Shown piece after piece: positions 1-6,134 of a DNA stretch of 6,134 nt. The notes under the pieces are model-generated. The model was given only the letters and a program-made list of their open reading frames with translations, searched no databases and was not told where the DNA came from. Position 1 is the first letter of the stretch, and every line of letters begins with the position of its first letter. The DNA is from Dehalococcoidales bacterium (lineage in GTDB: Bacteria; Chloroflexota; Dehalococcoidia; Dehalococcoidales; UBA5760): positions 1 to 6,134 of the forward strand of contig JAGYOC010000319.1 of NCBI GenBank assembly GCA_018399795.1. Reading direction: 5' to 3'. The position numbers and the translations under genes are program-made.

Positions 1-230
1 GGTGGCGGCAACAGAGAGCGGCACCTTTCCAGAACCGATTCCGCATCGCCCAGCTTTTCTACCTTTATCCCTGTTATCCCGTAGATAACCGGCAGATAAT
101 AGGCGGTATTGGGAAAGCCCACCGGTTCATTGGCACCCCACTTATCCATTGCTGCCTGCCACTTCTCCTCAGCCCGACCTACGATCTTGTGAGCTCCACG
201 GATAGCAGCCGACGCAATTATTTTTGACAT
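1..230 (-). CDS. acsB: Acetyl-CoA synthase (CODH/ACS), N-terminal 76 residues, cut by the window edge
   Basis: AcsB carries the nickel-containing A-cluster and joins CO from CO dehydrogenase, a methyl group from CFeSP and CoA into acetyl-CoA. Only the start of the gene is present. My translation begins MSKIIASAAIRGAHKI and contains EPVGFPNTAYYLPVIYG at residues 35-51, followed by KVEKLGD. This PVGxPxTAYYLPVI stretch is characteristic of the N-terminal domain of bacterial AcsB, which contacts CODH and which archaeal CdhC lacks. The A-cluster ligands lie in the missing part. The ATG at 230 has GAGG at 237-240, six bases upstream. The N-terminus before the conserved block looks somewhat shorter than I remember for the Moorella protein. 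The gene follows cooS by 33 nt, the usual pairing of the two catalytic subunits. Identity is firm; completeness of the gene beyond the edge is unknown. Confidence 0.9.
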   Translation of the reverse strand, partial: MSKIIASAAIRGAHKIVGRAEEKWQAAMDKWGANEPVGFPNTAYYLPVIYGITGIKVEKLGDAESVLERCRSLLPP

Positions 231-263
231 ACCTTACCTCTCACAACCTAAGAATTAGTTTTA

Positions 264-2231
264 TCAGGTGGCGTCCAGCTCGCGCCTCATTGCCATATCG
301 TAAAGGACCCTCTCACGGGATTTATCTATACCCAGTTCCTTGCGTTTCTTATCGATATGCTCAATCATCATTTTAGCCATCTTAATCGGGTCTGCCTCAA
401 AAGCCCACATACCACCGTACAGATCTTCGAAATCCCGGAACAGGAAATCGGTTACCTCCTTGCTACCCAGAGTCGGCCAGTTCACTCCGAACACGGTGAA
501 TATACCCGAGCCCACAAAGTACTGTCCAATGGAGATCGCCTTTTCGCTCATCCACTCCGGACCCGCTCCAGCAACAGGTAGGTCACTAACATCATCACCC
601 AGCCCACCATCCTTGACCATCATTGTGGCCGCAACCAAAATACGGGCATTATCAACACAGGAGCCGAGGTGTAAAACCGGGGGAATACCGATGGCCTTAC
701 ATACCGAGGCCAGACCCTCACCTGCATACTGGTCCGCAGCCTCCGGCAACATCAGGCCAGCTTTGGCACAGGCCATGGCACTGCATCCAGTCTGTAAAAC
801 GAGAACATCATTCTTGATAAGCTCCTTAACCACTGTAAGGTGAACATCATCATGAGTTACCCTGGCATTATTACAACCGACAACCCCCGCCACACCACGA
901 ATCCGGCCGTTTATGATGTTATCATTCAGAGGACGGTAAGATGCCCGGTAAATGCCCCCCATCAAATAGTTGATTGTCTCGTGGCTGAAGCCACCGATCA
1001 GCTCCGTTTCTTGCCTGGGGACACATACACTGGGGCTGCGATTGGGGAAATTATCGATGGCCATCCGGACAATCTTCCGGGCAATCCCCGGAGCATCATG
1101 CTCATCGAACTCAACATGGGTAGCACCTTCAATATGAGCCCTGGCATCGGTGGTTATTACCCTGGTATGATAGCACTGGGCTACATCGGCCAGTCCCTGC
1201 ATGATGCACTGAACATCTACTATAATGGCATCCAAGGCACCGGTAACGATAGCCAGCTCCTGCTGCAAGAAATTGCCGGCCAGAGGTATGCCGTGACGCA
1301 TCAGTATTTCATTGGCAGTACAGCACATACCGGCAAGATTAACCCCTGCGGCACCCTTGGACCTGGCGTACTCGATTATTTCCGGTTCCTGGGTTACCAC
1401 AGCAAGCATTTCGGCAAGTTGCGGTTCATGCCCATGAATTATAAGGTTTACCTCATCCTCTCTGAGTACACCCAGATTTATCCGCCCAAGAACAGGTGCC
1501 GGGGTGCCGAACAGGACATCCTGTAGCTCGGTGGCAATCATACTCCCCCCCCAACCATCGGACAATGCTGTCCGTACCGCCTGCCGGAGCAGGCTATGGT
1601 ATTCCTGATCAACCCCCATATGGGTACGGTGCATTATCTCCACCACTTCCCTGTCGATACCTCGCGGGGAAACCCCCTGCTTGCGCCAGAGTTCCTGCCT
1701 TTTCAGAGGAGCCCGTTTGAGGAACTGGACTTCTCCCTCCTGTCTGCCAAACTCCTTGAGGGCAATCTCACCGATATCTATAGCTATCTCCTCATTGCTG
1801 CGCTCCCCTATTTCCACACCCAGGTCGAGCGCCAGCTGCAGGAGTTTCTGCTCATCCTTTATATGGTATCCCGGTGCTTCACCCCTTGCTACGGCAAGAA
1901 ATGTCTCCGTGACCTTGCGCGCATGGTCACCATGCGCCGCAGCACCACCTGCCACCATACGGGCAAAATTACGGGCGGCGATTGTCTCTGCAGTGGCCCC
2001 ACAAACACCCCTCCGCTTCCTTTTCTCTTCAGCAGTCTCTTCCTTACCCTTGGCGAGCGGAACGCGGCAAGGACCCATACTACAGTTCTGGCAGCAACTA
2101 CCTACAGCACCGATGGGACAGGGTTTCATTGTTTCTGCCCTATCAAAGACAATATTGCAGCCATCGGTCGCTGCTTTTTCGATCATCTCATTGGTAGCAG
2201 GATCGATACTCTTTTTTCCCTTTTCTTCCAT
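264..2231 (-). CDS. cooS: Ni-Fe-S carbon monoxide dehydrogenase catalytic subunit of CODH/ACS (CooS/AcsA)
   Basis: This subunit interconverts CO2 and CO at the [NiFe4S4] C-cluster and channels CO to AcsB; it works as a cytoplasmic dimer. From the ATG at 2231 it has 655 residues, normal for the family. The N-terminal cysteines C38, C46, C47, C50, C55 and C76 fit the ligands of the D- and B-clusters. The C-cluster set is complete by motif: H266 in IIHGHEP, C304 in GMCCTANE, C342 in DVQCIMQ, C453 in GCNNARV, C483 in TGCSAMACAK and C525 in LGSCVDN. K564 in SEKAISIG matches the catalytic lysine. The C55-C76 spacing holds a charged KGKEETAEEKRKRRG segment, about seven residues longer than in Carboxydothermus CooS-II as I recall it. 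An in-frame GTG at 2237 is a less likely start, because it abuts the Shine-Dalgarno sequence. The gene ends in tandem stops (TGA, then TAA). It lies 15 nt after acsD and just before acsB, which marks it as the ACS-linked form and not a respiratory CO dehydrogenase. Confidence 0.97.
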   Translation of the reverse strand: MEEKGKKSIDPATNEMIEKAATDGCNIVFDRAETMKPCPIGAVGSCCQNCSMGPCRVPLAKGKEETAEEKRKRRGVCGATAETIAARNFARMVAGGAAAHGDHARKVTETFLAVARGEAPGYHIKDEQKLLQLALDLGVEIGERSNEEIAIDIGEIALKEFGRQEGEVQFLKRAPLKRQELWRKQGVSPRGIDREVVEIMHRTHMGVDQEYHSLLRQAVRTALSDGWGGSMIATELQDVLFGTPAPVLGRINLGVLREDEVNLIIHGHEPQLAEMLAVVTQEPEIIEYARSKGAAGVNLAGMCCTANEILMRHGIPLAGNFLQQELAIVTGALDAIIVDVQCIMQGLADVAQCYHTRVITTDARAHIEGATHVEFDEHDAPGIARKIVRMAIDNFPNRSPSVCVPRQETELIGGFSHETINYLMGGIYRASYRPLNDNIINGRIRGVAGVVGCNNARVTHDDVHLTVVKELIKNDVLVLQTGCSAMACAKAGLMLPEAADQYAGEGLASVCKAIGIPPVLHLGSCVDNARILVAATMMVKDGGLGDDVSDLPVAGAGPEWMSEKAISIGQYFVGSGIFTVFGVNWPTLGSKEVTDFLFRDFEDLYGGMWAFEADPIKMAKMMIEHIDKKRKELGIDKSRERVLYDMAMRRELDAT

Positions 2232-2236
2232 TTCCA

Positions 2237-2242
2237 CACCTC
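2237..2242 (-). promoter_or_regulatory. Ribosome binding site that decides the cooS start
   Basis: The minus strand reads GAGGTG here, followed by five bases and then ATG at 2231. The upstream in-frame GTG (2237-2235) begins directly after GAGGT and overlaps this motif, so it has no usable spacing. This favours ATG 2231 and a 655-residue protein. Confidence 0.7.
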
Positions 2243-2246
2243 AAAA

Positions 2247-3194
2247 TTAAGCTTGTGCCAGATCGGATATGGTATCCTTTACCAGCGCTATTGCATCCGG
2301 ATGACGCATAATTATGACGTCACCACCAGCCATAAGCAATACCATCGCCGACATCGCCTCCATCATTATGCCCCTTTTCCTGGCATCTCCAAGAGTAGGC
2401 TCTTCCTCGACAGTAAGGTGTACTTCCTTGGTTTTCCATACCTCTTTGGCCAGATTGCAGATGATCGGGTACTGTAGCTTTTCATCCTGCTGAGCAAGCC
2501 CGGCCATTCGCATTCTCTCCATTACCGAATAGGTATACTCGATTCCATAGCCGATGCCACTCACCGTGGGATCCATAATAATCTTTTCATCGGGCACGCC
2601 AAGATTCTCGAGCAGAATGTTAAGCTGTTTGGCAAGGTTGATATCGATGGGAGTCGATGCCGCTACGGTGTGCTGATAGGCAATAGACTGGGCACCAATC
2701 TTTTTGTGGTCGCCTTCTTCCACCGGCCCGATAACAAGGTTTTTCCCATGGCATACCTCGGCTACCTTGCTCAGCACTGCCGTATCCTTCTCATGATTGG
2801 CCGTACCCCATACGATAATGGGCACTTCGATAGCATCAGCCACCTTTTTGGCCACCTCCGCAGCTTCATCGGCACCACGATCCAGACCGTTGGGATCAGT
2901 GCTTTCGAGTTGCAGCGCTATCATCTCAGCCCCATAATCATTGACACATTTTTGCGCCCACGCCACCGGGTCGCCGGTCACACCCTGAAATGGTTCCAGA
3001 GCCGCTTCAGCCCATTCCTCGGGCTCTGCGTCATAGACCTCCATAGCTATCCGGGGCAACCTGGGCATCTCACCTTCAAACAGGTAAAAAGGGTAGCAAC
3101 TCTCGCCACCAACCCTTATTCCCTTTTCCGCACCACCAAGTGTTATCTCCCTGATGCTACCACTGTACTGCGTTTTTGGAATCTCAAGGGCCAT
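2247..3194 (-). CDS. acsD: Corrinoid iron-sulfur protein small subunit (acetyl-CoA decarbonylase/synthase delta subunit)
   Basis: AcsD pairs with AcsC to form CFeSP, the cobalamin carrier that takes the methyl group from methyl-tetrahydrofolate (via AcsE) and delivers it to the ACS A-cluster. The 315-residue protein is close to the length I recall for Moorella AcsD (about 320). It shows the family's TIM-barrel signatures: GDPVAWAQKCVNDYGAEMIA at 74-93, LESTDPNG at 96-103, PIIVWGTANHEKD at 125-137, IMDPTVSGIGYGIEYTYSVM at 206-225, and a C-terminal strand ending IIMRHPDA. As expected, it lacks the N-terminal four-cysteine [4Fe-4S] motif of AcsC. The start is well supported: AGGGAGG at 3201-3207, then six bases, then ATG. 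Its partner acsC is not next to it here, although the two proteins are obligate partners. The TIM barrel is distantly related to MtrH/AcsE methyltransferases, but the full motif set points to AcsD/CdhD. Confidence 0.95.
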   Translation of the reverse strand: MALEIPKTQYSGSIREITLGGAEKGIRVGGESCYPFYLFEGEMPRLPRIAMEVYDAEPEEWAEAALEPFQGVTGDPVAWAQKCVNDYGAEMIALQLESTDPNGLDRGADEAAEVAKKVADAIEVPIIVWGTANHEKDTAVLSKVAEVCHGKNLVIGPVEEGDHKKIGAQSIAYQHTVAASTPIDINLAKQLNILLENLGVPDEKIIMDPTVSGIGYGIEYTYSVMERMRMAGLAQQDEKLQYPIICNLAKEVWKTKEVHLTVEEEPTLGDARKRGIMMEAMSAMVLLMAGGDVIIMRHPDAIALVKDTISDLAQA

Positions 3195-3208
3195 TTACAA
3201 CCTCCCTC

Positions 3209-3427
3209 TTAAGCTGGGTTTTTCCTCTTTTCACTGCCATACCAATCTTTACCGTAAAGATAACGCTCCCCGGTTCTGAGATACTTCAACTTCTCCAGCC
3301 GATTGCTCAATTTCTGCCGCCAGCGGCCAAGGTCCTCGTTATCGGGCTTACCCGGCTCATAGGTTCCCCCAAGCACCTCAACCTTTTCTCTTCCCGGCGC
3401 GCTCTTTTCCTCTATTTCGTATTCCAT
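3209..3427 (-). CDS. Unrecognised 72-residue charged protein between folD and acsD
   Basis: I do not recognise this protein. It starts MEYEIEEKSAPGREK and has 72 residues, with no cysteine, no signal peptide and no membrane segment. By my count it has 14 acidic and 16 basic residues. Acid is concentrated near the N-terminus and base in the C-terminal half. The middle (about residues 32-50, DLGRWRQKLSNRLEKLKYL) should form an amphipathic helix, and it is followed by an aromatic, glycine-containing GERYLYGKDWYG segment at 53-64. It is likely a real gene: it fills the gap between folD (20 nt upstream) and acsD (14 nt downstream), all on one strand. AGGGGG lies at 3439-3444, 11 nt before the ATG, a rather long spacing. 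A small accessory or assembly protein for CODH/ACS or CFeSP is possible from context only. The lack of cysteine and histidine argues against a metal carrier. Confidence 0.65.
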   Translation of the reverse strand: MEYEIEEKSAPGREKVEVLGGTYEPGKPDNEDLGRWRQKLSNRLEKLKYLRTGERYLYGKDWYGSEKRKNPA

Positions 3428-3447
3428 TACCGTTAATGCCCCCTAGG

Positions 3448-4326
3448 TTATTGAAGTCCGCCGGCCAGCTTGGCAGCCCTGACCGTGCTATGCATAAGCA
3501 TGGTAACTGTCATCGGTCCGATACCACCGGGAACCGGTGTAATTGCCTCGGCTTTCTCCTTGATGGCATCAAAGTCCAGATCACCGACCAGTTTCTCCTT
3601 ATCATCCGAAGGGTCTTTTATGTAGTTGGCACCAAAATCTATAGCGATAACACCCTCCTTAACCATATCCGCGGTAATGAACCTGGCTTTATCTACTGCA
3701 ACCACAACTATATCAGCTCCGCGCGTGTAATTGGCCAGGTCCGGAGCATTGGGGTGGCATAAAGTTACATTGGCCCCAACAGCTTCCTGTGCCCACAAAG
3801 ATGCGAGCGGCTTGCCAACCAGGTTATCCACATTCACTATAACCACGCTCTTCCCTTTCAGATTGGCATAGCCATACCGCACCAGTATCTCATGAATACC
3901 GATGGGTGTTGCGGGAAGGAAGGCACTCTGTCCCAGCCAGGCCCTGCCAACATTGCTGGGGTGGAATCCGTCCACATCCTTGTCCGGTGCCACCGCATTG
4001 AGCACCCTGTTTTCGTCGATGTGCCCTGGCATGGGCAACTGGATAAAAATGCCGTGGACATTTTTATCCTGATTGAGCCGGTCAACTTCCTTGAGAACAT
4101 CCGCTTCGGATACATTTTCGGCCAGCTTAAGCATCGCCGCGCGGATACCCAGCTGATTGGCCGCCTTTTCCTTGAGCCTGACATAGCTGGCCGAACCGGG
4201 GTCTTCACCGACAAGAATTCCGGTAATGCCGGGAACTATTCCCTTACCGGCGAGACTTTCCGTCTCTCGTTTCAGCTCTTCTTTTATCTCGGCTGAAGTT
4301 TTTCTCCCGTCCAGTATTGTCACCAT
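3448..4326 (-). CDS. folD: FolD-family methylene-THF dehydrogenase/methenyl-THF cyclohydrolase, copy with intact catalytic residues but altered nucleotide loop
   Basis: FolD oxidises or reduces 5,10-methylene/methenyl-THF and hydrolyses or forms the methenyl ring, giving 10-formyl-THF. It serves the methyl branch of the pathway in the cytoplasm. The 292-residue length is standard. The catalytic set of the bifunctional enzyme is present: Y48 and K52 (SYVRLKEKA), Q96 (IQLPMP) and D119 (KDVDGF), plus ITPVPGGIGPMT at 262-273. The Rossmann side is unusual. The common V-G-[RA]-S-N-I-V-G-[KR]-P loop reads VNVDNLVGKP at 164-173, with Asn for Gly and Asp for Ser. The later AVGKPG is AVDKAR at 210-215, with Asp for Gly. 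Cofactor use is therefore uncertain, and a protein acting mainly as cyclohydrolase is possible. The ATG begins two bases after the upstream folD stop and has no well-spaced Shine-Dalgarno, which suggests translational coupling. Confidence 0.93.
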   Translation of the reverse strand: MVTILDGRKTSAEIKEELKRETESLAGKGIVPGITGILVGEDPGSASYVRLKEKAANQLGIRAAMLKLAENVSEADVLKEVDRLNQDKNVHGIFIQLPMPGHIDENRVLNAVAPDKDVDGFHPSNVGRAWLGQSAFLPATPIGIHEILVRYGYANLKGKSVVIVNVDNLVGKPLASLWAQEAVGANVTLCHPNAPDLANYTRGADIVVVAVDKARFITADMVKEGVIAIDFGANYIKDPSDDKEKLVGDLDFDAIKEKAEAITPVPGGIGPMTVTMLMHSTVRAAKLAGGLQ

Positions 4327-4328
4327 AC

Positions 4329-5183
4329 CTATTTGCTCAACCTCTCTGCAGCTTCAACAGTGTGAGCCAGCAGTATCGTTGTCGTTACGGAGCCGACTCC
4401 ACCCGGTACCGGTGTTATCATTCCGGCAACCTGGCTTACCTCATCATAATCGGCATCCCCGCTCATTTTGCCGTCCTCACCCCTGCTAACACCGACATCG
4501 ATAACAATAGTACCAGGGCTTACCATATCCCTGGTTACCATCTTGGCCCTGCCTACCGCACTGACCAGAATCTCAGCTCTCCTATACTCGGCAACAGGTT
4601 CTACAGTTTTGTAATCGCATAGTATCACAGTAGCCCAGCGATTTAAAAGCATTATGCCAACAGTCCTGCCGATATTGCCAGCACCGCCGACAATAACCAC
4701 CCTTTTACCATCAATTTCCACTTTGTACCGGTCCAGTAGTTCGATAACGGCCGATGGAGTACAGGGAGCAAATCCATCGGTTTCTCGAGAAACCAGTTTG
4801 GCCATACTTATCGGATTTAGGCAGTCAACATCTTTCTCGGTAGCAAGCAGCTTGAGGATAGCACTTTCGTTGATATGCTTGGGCAAAGGGCGCTGAATAA
4901 TAATGCCATGAAATTTGGCGTTATCGTTAAGTTCCTCGACTGTTTGTGCCAGTTTCTCCTGACTTACATCCTCAGGCAGGCTTACCGTCTCGGTATAAAC
5001 ACCAACCTTCTCGCATCCCTTGGCGATACCCTTCAGGTAGGACTGTGCTCCCGGATCCTCGCCGACCATAACTGCCGCCAGGCCAGGTTCCACACCTTTA
5101 CCCTTCAGTGTTTCCACACGCGGTATCAATTCACCCCTTATCTGCTCTGCAACCTCTTTACCGTTAATAATCTGTGCTGTCAT
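4329..5183 (-). CDS. folD: Divergent FolD paralogue, probable NAD-dependent methylene-THF dehydrogenase lacking the catalytic lysine
   Basis: From the ATG at 5183 this protein has 284 residues (MTAQIINGKEVAEQIR...), a normal FolD length. The fold is clear: GEDPGAQSYLKG, IIIQRPLP, KDVDCLNP, PCTPSAVIELL and ITPVPGGVGSVT in order. The tyrosine is kept (Y49), but gapless alignment with the neighbour puts I53 where bifunctional FolD has its essential lysine. Q97 and D120 remain. The ring-closing/hydrolysing activity depends on that lysine in the human enzyme, so cyclohydrolase activity is doubtful. The nucleotide loop reads VVIVGGAGNIGR (162-173), a classic GxGxxG, and beta-2 ends in LCDYKT with Asp190 where many FolD have His. 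That acid suggests NAD instead of NADP. I infer an NAD-linked dehydrogenase. It stands 87 nt after cooC and two bases before the second folD. Similarity to that copy is modest, so this is not a recent tandem duplication. Confidence 0.9.
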   Translation of the reverse strand: MTAQIINGKEVAEQIRGELIPRVETLKGKGVEPGLAAVMVGEDPGAQSYLKGIAKGCEKVGVYTETVSLPEDVSQEKLAQTVEELNDNAKFHGIIIQRPLPKHINESAILKLLATEKDVDCLNPISMAKLVSRETDGFAPCTPSAVIELLDRYKVEIDGKRVVIVGGAGNIGRTVGIMLLNRWATVILCDYKTVEPVAEYRRAEILVSAVGRAKMVTRDMVSPGTIVIDVGVSRGEDGKMSGDADYDEVSQVAGMITPVPGGVGSVTTTILLAHTVEAAERLSK

Positions 5184-5188
5184 CATTT

Positions 5189-5193
5189 CCTCC
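5189..5193 (-). promoter_or_regulatory. Ribosome binding site deciding the start of the upstream folD
   Basis: The minus strand reads ATGGAGGAAATGATG across 5195-5181. GGAGG lies five bases before the third ATG (5183) and only two before the second (5186). The first ATG (5195) has only A-rich sequence upstream and itself overlaps the motif. ATG 5183 is therefore preferred; starting at 5195 would add MEEM to the N-terminus. Confidence 0.65.
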
Positions 5194-5224
5194 ATTTTTG
5201 TTTTTTATTTTGGTAATCCCAACA

Positions 5225-5255
5225 GCCGGGAAATATACCTCTGGCAGTTCCCGAC
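5225..5255 (-). other. Possible RNA hairpin in the cooC-folD gap
   Basis: In the minus-strand transcript, GUCGGGAA (5255-5248) can pair with UUCCCGGC (5232-5225). This gives an eight-pair stem with one U-G wobble and a 15-base loop. The wobble becomes a C-A mismatch on the plus strand, so the structure suits the operon transcript. It lies in the largest intergenic gap of the window (5184-5270). No U-run follows it, so it does not look like an intrinsic terminator. A processing site, mRNA-stabilising element or chance repeat are all possible. Confidence 0.35.
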
Positions 5256-5270
5256 AAAAATATCTTCTAT

Positions 5271-6026
5271 TCATTTGGTAAGCCTTGCCATCAGGTCGTC
5301 AACTGCCCTAACCGCAACCGAGCTATCCGGTAACTCTATCAAGGGACGTAGCTCAACATCGTACTGATACAGGTCATTGTCCTGCGGTATCATAGCCGCC
5401 GGCTCTATATCCAGTCGTTCCAGCTCTCCTTCAACCGCAGAAGGCAGTTTATCCGGGGAAGGGTTGATTACCACCGACTGCCTTTTTATCCTCAGCCTTA
5501 GCTGAGCTACGATATCTCTTATGCGGGCAATAGTTCTGACCCCCTTCACAGTAGGATTGGCCACAATCAATAACTCGTCAATATCCTGCGTAGTTCTCCG
5601 CGACAGGTGCTCCATTCCCGCCTCATTATCCATAACCTCGTAGTCATAATTACCCATGAGACGGTCAGCAAATTTCCTCAAGACTAGATTGGGATAGCAA
5701 TAGCACTCCGGCCCCTCACCCCGCCCCATTGTTATCAGGTCATACCTCGCTTCCTCAACTATAACCTCGTTCAAGCGATATTCCAGATAGGTCTCTTTTG
5801 TCATCCCGGGCGGTATGTCTATCTTGTTCCTCTGGAAATCATCCAAAATCTTGCCCACTGTATGCTTCACCTCAACACCCAGGCTCTCCCCCAGATTGGC
5901 ATTGGGGTCAGCATCAATAGCCAGTATCGGCCCGGTACTCCTGTTTATCAGGTAACGCATAACCAGACAGGCGATAGACGTCTTGCCGCTGCCTCCCTTA
6001 CCGGCCATAGCTATCGAAATAGTCAA
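5271..6026 (-). CDS. cooC: CODH/ACS nickel-maturation ATPase (CooC/AcsF)
   Basis: CooC is a cytoplasmic, MinD/NifH-type P-loop ATPase that dimerises and helps insert nickel into CO dehydrogenase and, in AcsF-type forms, acetyl-CoA synthase. The 251-residue protein opens with the deviant Walker A GKGGSGKT at 9-16, where K10 is the signature lysine and K15 the P-loop lysine. IDADPNANLGESLG at 37-50 is the switch region. ECYCYPN at 107-113 carries the C108-x-C110 pair that binds metal at the dimer interface in CooC. VMDNEAGMEHLSRRT at 131-145 is typical of CooC. The start is TTG at 6026. An in-frame TAA lies two codons upstream, and the next ATG (6008) would delete the first beta-strand before the P-loop. 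GGGGG at 6037-6041 is ten bases upstream. Position in an acs operon, next to a likely activator gene, supports this role over ParA or NifH. Confidence 0.94.
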   Translation of the reverse strand: MTISIAMAGKGGSGKTSIACLVMRYLINRSTGPILAIDADPNANLGESLGVEVKHTVGKILDDFQRNKIDIPPGMTKETYLEYRLNEVIVEEARYDLITMGRGEGPECYCYPNLVLRKFADRLMGNYDYEVMDNEAGMEHLSRRTTQDIDELLIVANPTVKGVRTIARIRDIVAQLRLRIKRQSVVINPSPDKLPSAVEGELERLDIEPAAMIPQDNDLYQYDVELRPLIELPDSSVAVRAVDDLMARLTK

Positions 6027-6029
6027 AGC

Positions 6030-6134
6030 TTAAATACCCCCTTTGATTCTACCAACACCTATCTGAGCCAGCCTTTTACTCACCTGAGGAAATTCATCAG
6101 CATGTGTGTTGGGCAGAAAAAGACCAGCGACATA
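6030..6134 (-). CDS. C-terminal 34 residues of a probable corrinoid-protein reductive activator (RACo/AcsV, ASKHA-type), cut by the window edge
   Basis: Reading in from the right edge gives a stop-free frame, YVAGLFLPNTHADEFP then QVSKRLAQIGVGRIKGGI, ending in TAA at 6030-6032. The frame is followed three bases later by the cooC start. The YVAGLFLPNT...FPQV pattern resembles the extreme C-terminus of the ASKHA ferredoxins that reductively reactivate corrinoid proteins (RACo, AcsV, RamA), which as I recall end near a [YF]VxAxxLPHxxxxxFPSV motif. The expected His is Asn here, and about 16 further residues follow the motif. Such an activator (orf7 in the Moorella acs cluster) restores Co(I) in CFeSP, which fits acsD in the same operon. 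The assignment rests on a short tail plus context and could be wrong. Confidence 0.5.
   Translation of the reverse strand, partial: YVAGLFLPNTHADEFPQVSKRLAQIGVGRIKGGI

Follow-up and report, generated by a model that had tools for sequence, protein, structure and literature searches.

FolD is the textbook example of a bifunctional enzyme, its dehydrogenase and cyclohydrolase activities sharing one site. FolD proteins that act only as dehydrogenases are already known, and we take yeast MTD1 to be an NAD-dependent methylene-tetrahydrofolate (methylene-THF) dehydrogenase without cyclohydrolase activity; the title of PDB entry 1edz names an NAD-dependent dehydrogenase. Sah and Varshney reportedly found in 2015 that FolD K54S is dehydrogenase-only and that R191E is nearly cyclohydrolase-only. 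Of the active-site residues, the lysine is described as the general acid/base of the cyclohydrolase step, with the glutamine positioning the lysine and the aspartate holding the pterin (excerpt of PMC3338484). Substitution K54N in E. coli FolD leaves approximately 19% of the dehydrogenase activity and no detectable cyclohydrolase activity (excerpt of PMC5688156), and K53A in the silkworm enzyme lowers kcat/Km for NADP only 1.4-fold (excerpt of PMC6443876). The NADP site contains the arginine and serine of the GRS motif, and the lysine and glutamine have been proposed to assist hydride transfer (excerpt of PMC6443876). The lysine thus matters for the dehydrogenase as well, since K54N retains about a fifth of this activity and Lys and Gln are implicated in hydride transfer in these excerpts. 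Spontaneous hydrolysis of methenyl-THF is possible (excerpt of PMC5688156), so that a Lys-less enzyme alone is no proof that a cyclohydrolase is needed.

The two steps are assigned to separate genes, folD and fchA, in Acetobacterium woodii (excerpt of PMC3315566). A survey of folD reports no ancient prokaryotic duplications in the stem groups of major phyla and later ones in some lineages (excerpt of PMC11064299); the same excerpt calls MTD1 cyclohydrolase-only and then gives it the dehydrogenase reaction, which is probably a slip. In work on deep-sea Chloroflexi, folD from one single-cell genome is called bifunctional (excerpt of PMC5736913). A published FolD-fold dedicated cyclohydrolase paired with a dehydrogenase-only FolD was not found in a search of one open-access library. 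Here we analyse a 6,134-nucleotide stretch of DNA from a Dehalococcoidales bacterium (contig JAGYOC010000319.1, positions 1 to 6,134; hereafter the window), in which two neighbouring genes probably divide the FolD reaction between separate FolD-fold enzymes, one for each step, their activities being predicted from sequence.

The paired FolD genes of the window

The two genes, named UP and DN for their upstream and downstream positions, lie on the minus strand, as do all other window features discussed here. As first noted from the sequence, they stand two bases apart (UP, 4329..5195, ORF 5195-4329; DN, 3448..4326, ORF 4326-3448) and belong to the FolD family: each matches PF00763 and PF02882, with no PF04961 in either, and the predicted monomer of each is an ordinary full-length FolD fold. 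The UP frame encodes 288 aa, or 284 aa counted from the MTAQ methionine at 5183, the start that agrees with the residue numbering used in the original prediction; DN encodes 292 aa. Upstream of UP lies a gene for a CooC-like ATPase (5271..6026), and DN is followed by genes for the CODH/ACS delta subunit (CdhD/AcsD; 2247..3194) and the CO dehydrogenase catalytic subunit (264..2237). Between DN and CdhD is a conserved 72-aa ORF (3209..3427), which had no Pfam, NCBIfam or PDB match. An ORF of approximately 72 aa with the pattern APGR...EVLG...WRQK...ERYxYxKxWYGSEKRK occupies the same slot of the CODH/ACS operon at L002, L007, L008, L010 and L013.

Conservation was read from three homologue searches, each yielding the best 120 proteins for its query. 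With one protein listed twice the total is 359, and residue classes were counted on the 358 longer than 250 aa, P0023 (158 aa) being excluded for its length. These proteins are the nearest matches to the three queries rather than a random sample, and they comprise 120 DN-type, 143 I-type (isoleucine at the position of the catalytic lysine), 61 with alanine at that position (A-type) and 34 K-type proteins, the last all having the Tyr-Lys-Gln-Asp (Y-K-Q-D) set.

UP retains the conserved tyrosine, the glutamine and the aspartate and has isoleucine at Tyr+4 (Ile57, or Ile53 from MTAQ; codon 5025..5027). In an alignment with 2c2x and 3p2o the lysine of these solved FolDs sits opposite this residue with no gap, which bears out the substitution originally proposed. 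Neither K51 nor K55 (MTAQ numbering), the lysines that the original prediction had named as possible occupants of the active-site position, is found there: they are Tyr+2 and Tyr+6, and the gap-free alignment and ordinary full-length folds argue that they do not substitute for the lysine. With isoleucine in its place UP lacks the Tyr-xxx-Lys, Gln and Asp set that marks the cyclohydrolase of a bifunctional FolD, and for this reason was not filed as bifunctional. Its nucleotide loop, GGAGNIGRT (4662..4688), had been described as a clean GxGxxG loop. A Gly-rich loop is indeed present, but GxGxxG is not the FolD norm, all 34 listed K-type proteins having GRSxxVG; the GGAG form is found in 22 of the 143 listed I-type proteins, and the window's UP, with GGAGxxGR, itself carries a subclade variant. 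Across the listed I-type proteins, the window's own included, the first loop position is Gly in 143/143 and the glutamine is kept in 141/143. An aspartate ending strand beta-2 of a Rossmann domain is the usual mark of NAD over NADP. UP has such an aspartate (the first letter of DYKT; 4614..4616), as do 22/143 listed I-type proteins, which, by this general rule, suggests NAD rather than NADP for the UP1 lineage to which the window's gene belongs. By its FolD fold, lost lysine and retained nucleotide loop UP fits a monofunctional FolD dehydrogenase, and the best reading is a predicted methylene-THF dehydrogenase only, probably NAD-linked.

DN has kept Y48, K52 (codon 4171..4173), Q96 and D119, as the original prediction held, and Y-K-Q-D is present in 120/120 listed DN proteins, the window's own included; no protein with the DN loop and a residue other than lysine at the Lys position was found among the listed homologues. 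The DN NAD(P) loop, N165-V-D-N-L-V-G-K-P173 (3808..3834), replaces GRSNIVGKP, with N-x-D where the FolD norm is G-R-S and hence Val and Asp at the positions of the GRS arginine and serine. The loop had been judged degraded, but it is conserved: all 120 close homologues listed, among them the window's own protein, have Asp at position 3, and at position 1 there are 114 with Asn, 3 with Ser and 3 with Gly. The same conservation rules out a pseudogene. The glycine of the AVGK motif is Asp212 in DN (AVDK; 3691..3693), and this position is Asp in 77 and Asn in 43 of the 120 listed DN proteins, whereas it is Gly in 238/238 and Asp or Asn in 0/238 of the other listed proteins. Proline follows the conserved histidine in 115/120 listed DN versus 0/238 other listed proteins, at what we take to be the position of E. 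coli FolD R191. DN was not filed as bifunctional because GRSxxVG is missing (NVDNLVG instead), with Asp at loop position 3; its retained cyclohydrolase residues, lost NAD(P) motif and membership of one clade match the profile of a FolD-fold cyclohydrolase. The sequence suggests that DN has lost NAD(P) binding, although its fold is intact, and it is best read as a predicted methenyl-THF cyclohydrolase only, of FolD fold, standing in for FchA.

Recurrence of the tandem across the class

A DNA pattern for DNLVGKPLA matched 15 stretches in genome_contigs, 14 of them titled Dehalococcoidia, Dehalococcoidales, Chloroflexota or Chloroflexi; the match in Roseateles (L003) was set aside as chance, no folD frame being found at the locus. 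Together with six more genomes from this class and the additional tandem of G008, these 14 give 21 loci in 20 Dehalococcoidia/Chloroflexota genomes at which an UP-type gene is paired with DN, or 22 tandems with the window. The pattern selects for the DN loop, of which it misses at least four variants, and is blind to the DN lysine and to the isoleucine of the partner. In 21/21 tandem loci the UP-type gene precedes DN on one strand, the order seen in the window, and has isoleucine at the Lys position. Every readable tandem DN (20/20) has Y-K-Q-D with an altered loop, the twenty-first (L097 of G136) being cut by a contig end. The gap between the two genes is -4 to 229 bases at 19 of the 20 loci tried, taking the start codon closest to the DN motif. 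L071, a short frame, is absent from the residue tables, and L115-L120 are outside the counts, L116 having been read by hand. Recurrence at 21 further loci indicates that the residue pattern of UP and DN is not chance. The UP-type gene has also lost the glutamine, to Phe or Leu, at three of the 21 loci (L010 3557-4435, L025 of G012 and L090 of G031), a loss that resembles the A-type lineage, whereas the DN glutamine is retained at 20/20 loci. G008 carries two tandems of DN with a UP2 gene (L009 and L030), on different contigs.

The search was also run in reverse, with an I-type query that is blind to DN, and matched 317 of 393 class genomes. Of the thirty loci read, 12 were I-type; the other 18 were K-type and showed no second folD frame. 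DN follows at 11 of the 12 I-type loci, and at the remaining one the contig breaks off within the start of DN; four of the DN genes reached in this way have loops that the first pattern did not match. An I-type gene without DN could have been missed, since most of the 317 matching genomes were not read for residues. In total, 47 K-type loci from 45 class genomes all have Y-K-Q-D and a single folD frame per locus, a count whose scope is the locus only, these loci spanning approximately 1.5 kb past the match and some being cut by contig ends. A class-wide PF02882 search gave copy numbers for most genomes and residues for the best matches listed. The strict DN pattern occurs in 9/393 class genomes and an UP-type gene, by all evidence, in 14/393, which indicates that the division between UP and DN is confined to a minority of the class.

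Many proteins between P0022 and P0099 belong to a large FolD lineage in which the lysine is mostly replaced by Ala and the glutamine by Met or Phe; sources name some of its members bifunctional. Among the 61 listed A-type proteins the Gln position is Met in 50, Phe in 10 and Leu in 1, and the lineage is likely to be dehydrogenase-only. An A-type query against 301 genomes of the phylum gave 0 matches at 1e-95, in a search with no positive control.

Partner lineages and other genes of the pair genomes

Phylogeny was assessed with a quick tree of 99 rows and a careful tree of 91 rows from which the catalytic and loop columns were excluded, eight rows (long branches and near-duplicates) having been dropped between the two. 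DN forms a single clade (support 100/100). Its Lys-less tandem partners form two lineages, UP2 (17 rows, 100/99), which is the commoner DN partner here, and UP1 (10 rows with the window, 100/99); UP1 joins the A-type Lys-less lineage (100/99), and the DN partners of UP1 are nested inside the DN clade. A single clade of UP1 and UP2 was rejected with a p-AU of 0.0058, a value that is optimistic because the groups were named after the first quick tree. P0068, labelled A-type in the trees, has Ile at the Lys position rather than Ala, and P0100 (Ile, GGAG loop) falls outside both UP lineages. A recent tandem duplication giving rise to the window's UP and DN was rejected on the grouping of UP1 with A-type and on the p-AU value. 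The two genes had been called paralogues, and both are indeed FolD-family members, but in the tree the window's UP is no simple recent duplicate of DN and belongs to another lineage than other DN partners.

UP1 precedes DN and CdhD at L002, L007, L008 and in the window, and at L010 it is UP2 that occupies this slot, between CooC and DN-CdhD. The combination of one DN clade with two Lys-less partner lineages argues for partner exchange within the operon, and the dehydrogenase partner of DN was probably swapped there while complementarity persisted.

A separate cyclohydrolase elsewhere in the pair genomes was considered and rejected: FchA (PF04961) was found in 0/14 genomes and then in 0/14, six of them new (0/20 overall), and Mch in 0/20, the controls of these searches being positive in 2 and 3 of 14 named genomes. 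Formyl-THF ligase is above cut-off in 16/20 pair genomes. The pair, or pairs, are alone above the PF02882 cut-off in 17/20, and no further folD was found beyond them in 19/20; the single copy of G136 reflects the cut contig. G062 has a third folD, of ordinary K-type and adjoining formyl-THF ligase (L116, contig C9), which may be a real gene or contamination. In G009 a third match to PF02882, a marginal one (27.1 bits), was rejected, the 294-aa frame being shikimate-dehydrogenase-like by eye and not FolD. All pair genomes are MAGs of 0.7-2.6 Mb that may be incomplete, and the absences are therefore weaker than the counts suggest.

A predicted division of labour and its relation to known systems

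In the proposed scheme DN would interconvert 10-formyl-THF and 5,10-methenyl-THF at its Tyr-Lys-Gln-Asp site, having abandoned the use of NAD(P), and UP would interconvert methenyl-THF and methylene-THF without the lysine, the cofactor probably being NAD(H) in the subclade of the window. Encoded beside the CODH/ACS genes, the two together would supply the methyl branch of the Wood-Ljungdahl pathway, with DN taking the role of FchA in other acetogens. The original prediction of a bifunctional enzyme split by reciprocal losses has held up well, backed by the conserved signatures, the constant order at 21 loci, the lack of detected FchA and Mch (0/20) or further folD (19/20) in the pair genomes, and the E. 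coli K54N mutant. A more speculative extension, to which we give rather little credence, is that UP and DN are a putative obligate heterodimer that would keep the FolD dimer interface, with one step per chain and methenyl-THF handed between the sites; the N-x-D loop might then be re-used to close the pocket or dock the partner, and the dehydrogenase subunit could be replaced in evolution by one from another Lys-less lineage that uses a different cofactor.

The altered positions of DN are conserved rather than drifting and its fold is intact, as would also be expected if DN still carried out both steps with a changed cofactor (another nucleotide, a deazaflavin or a protein electron donor) fitting the N-x-D loop and the Asp or Asn of the AVGK motif. 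We consider this improbable, because the changes fall in NADP-site positions of solved relatives (excerpt of PMC6443876) and add negative charge, and because DN would then have no need of the Lys-less, Gly-rich-loop dehydrogenase beside it, which is nevertheless present in 22/22 tandems. Constant adjacency and order (21/21 loci), together with the possibility of spontaneous methenyl-THF hydrolysis (excerpt of PMC5688156), could instead point to DN as a non-catalytic or regulatory partner subunit of UP, but the chance of this seems very slim, given that the four catalytic residues invariant in 120/120 listed DN proteins would be needless in a scaffold. It is also hard to credit that UP and DN are both bifunctional, another UP residue having replaced the lysine: UP does retain Tyr, Gln and Asp, and its lysines at Tyr+2 and Tyr+6 have a counterpart in Lys or Arg at these positions in 143/143 listed I-type proteins, but neither falls on the Lys position in the gap-free alignment, the glutamine too is lost from the UP-type gene at three loci, and cyclohydrolase activity is undetectable in E. 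coli K54N (excerpt of PMC5688156).

The division of the FolD reaction between UP and DN, as predicted, would be of interest in several respects. A natural and conserved separation would show which residues each step needs, and would offer a cyclohydrolase of FolD fold that takes the place of FchA. It would correct annotation, several such genes being named bifunctional or dehydrogenase/cyclohydrolase by their sources, and would add an old, within-class division of labour to the FolD family. The phylogeny suggests that one half was apparently replaced by another lineage with complementarity kept. For the uncultured Dehalococcoidia the split bears on whether NADH or NADPH is the electron carrier of the methyl branch.

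Set against the bifunctional FolD and the DC domain of MTHFD1, which have the same PF00763 and PF02882 architecture, UP is without the cyclohydrolase lysine and DN without GRS, each thus representing half of a bifunctional site. As predicted here, UP would resemble yeast MTD1, a FolD-fold dehydrogenase only. The E. coli FolD mutants (K54N and, reportedly, K54S and R191E) demonstrate that single changes separate the activities, but these are laboratory-made, whereas the predicted separation between UP and DN is natural, conserved and spread over two genes. A further likeness is to cluster II of A. woodii, in which, as predicted for UP and DN, a FolD dehydrogenase and a cyclohydrolase divide the two steps of the same pathway; there, however, the cyclohydrolase is FchA, whereas here FchA was found in 0/20 pair genomes and the cyclohydrolase partner would itself be a relative of FolD.
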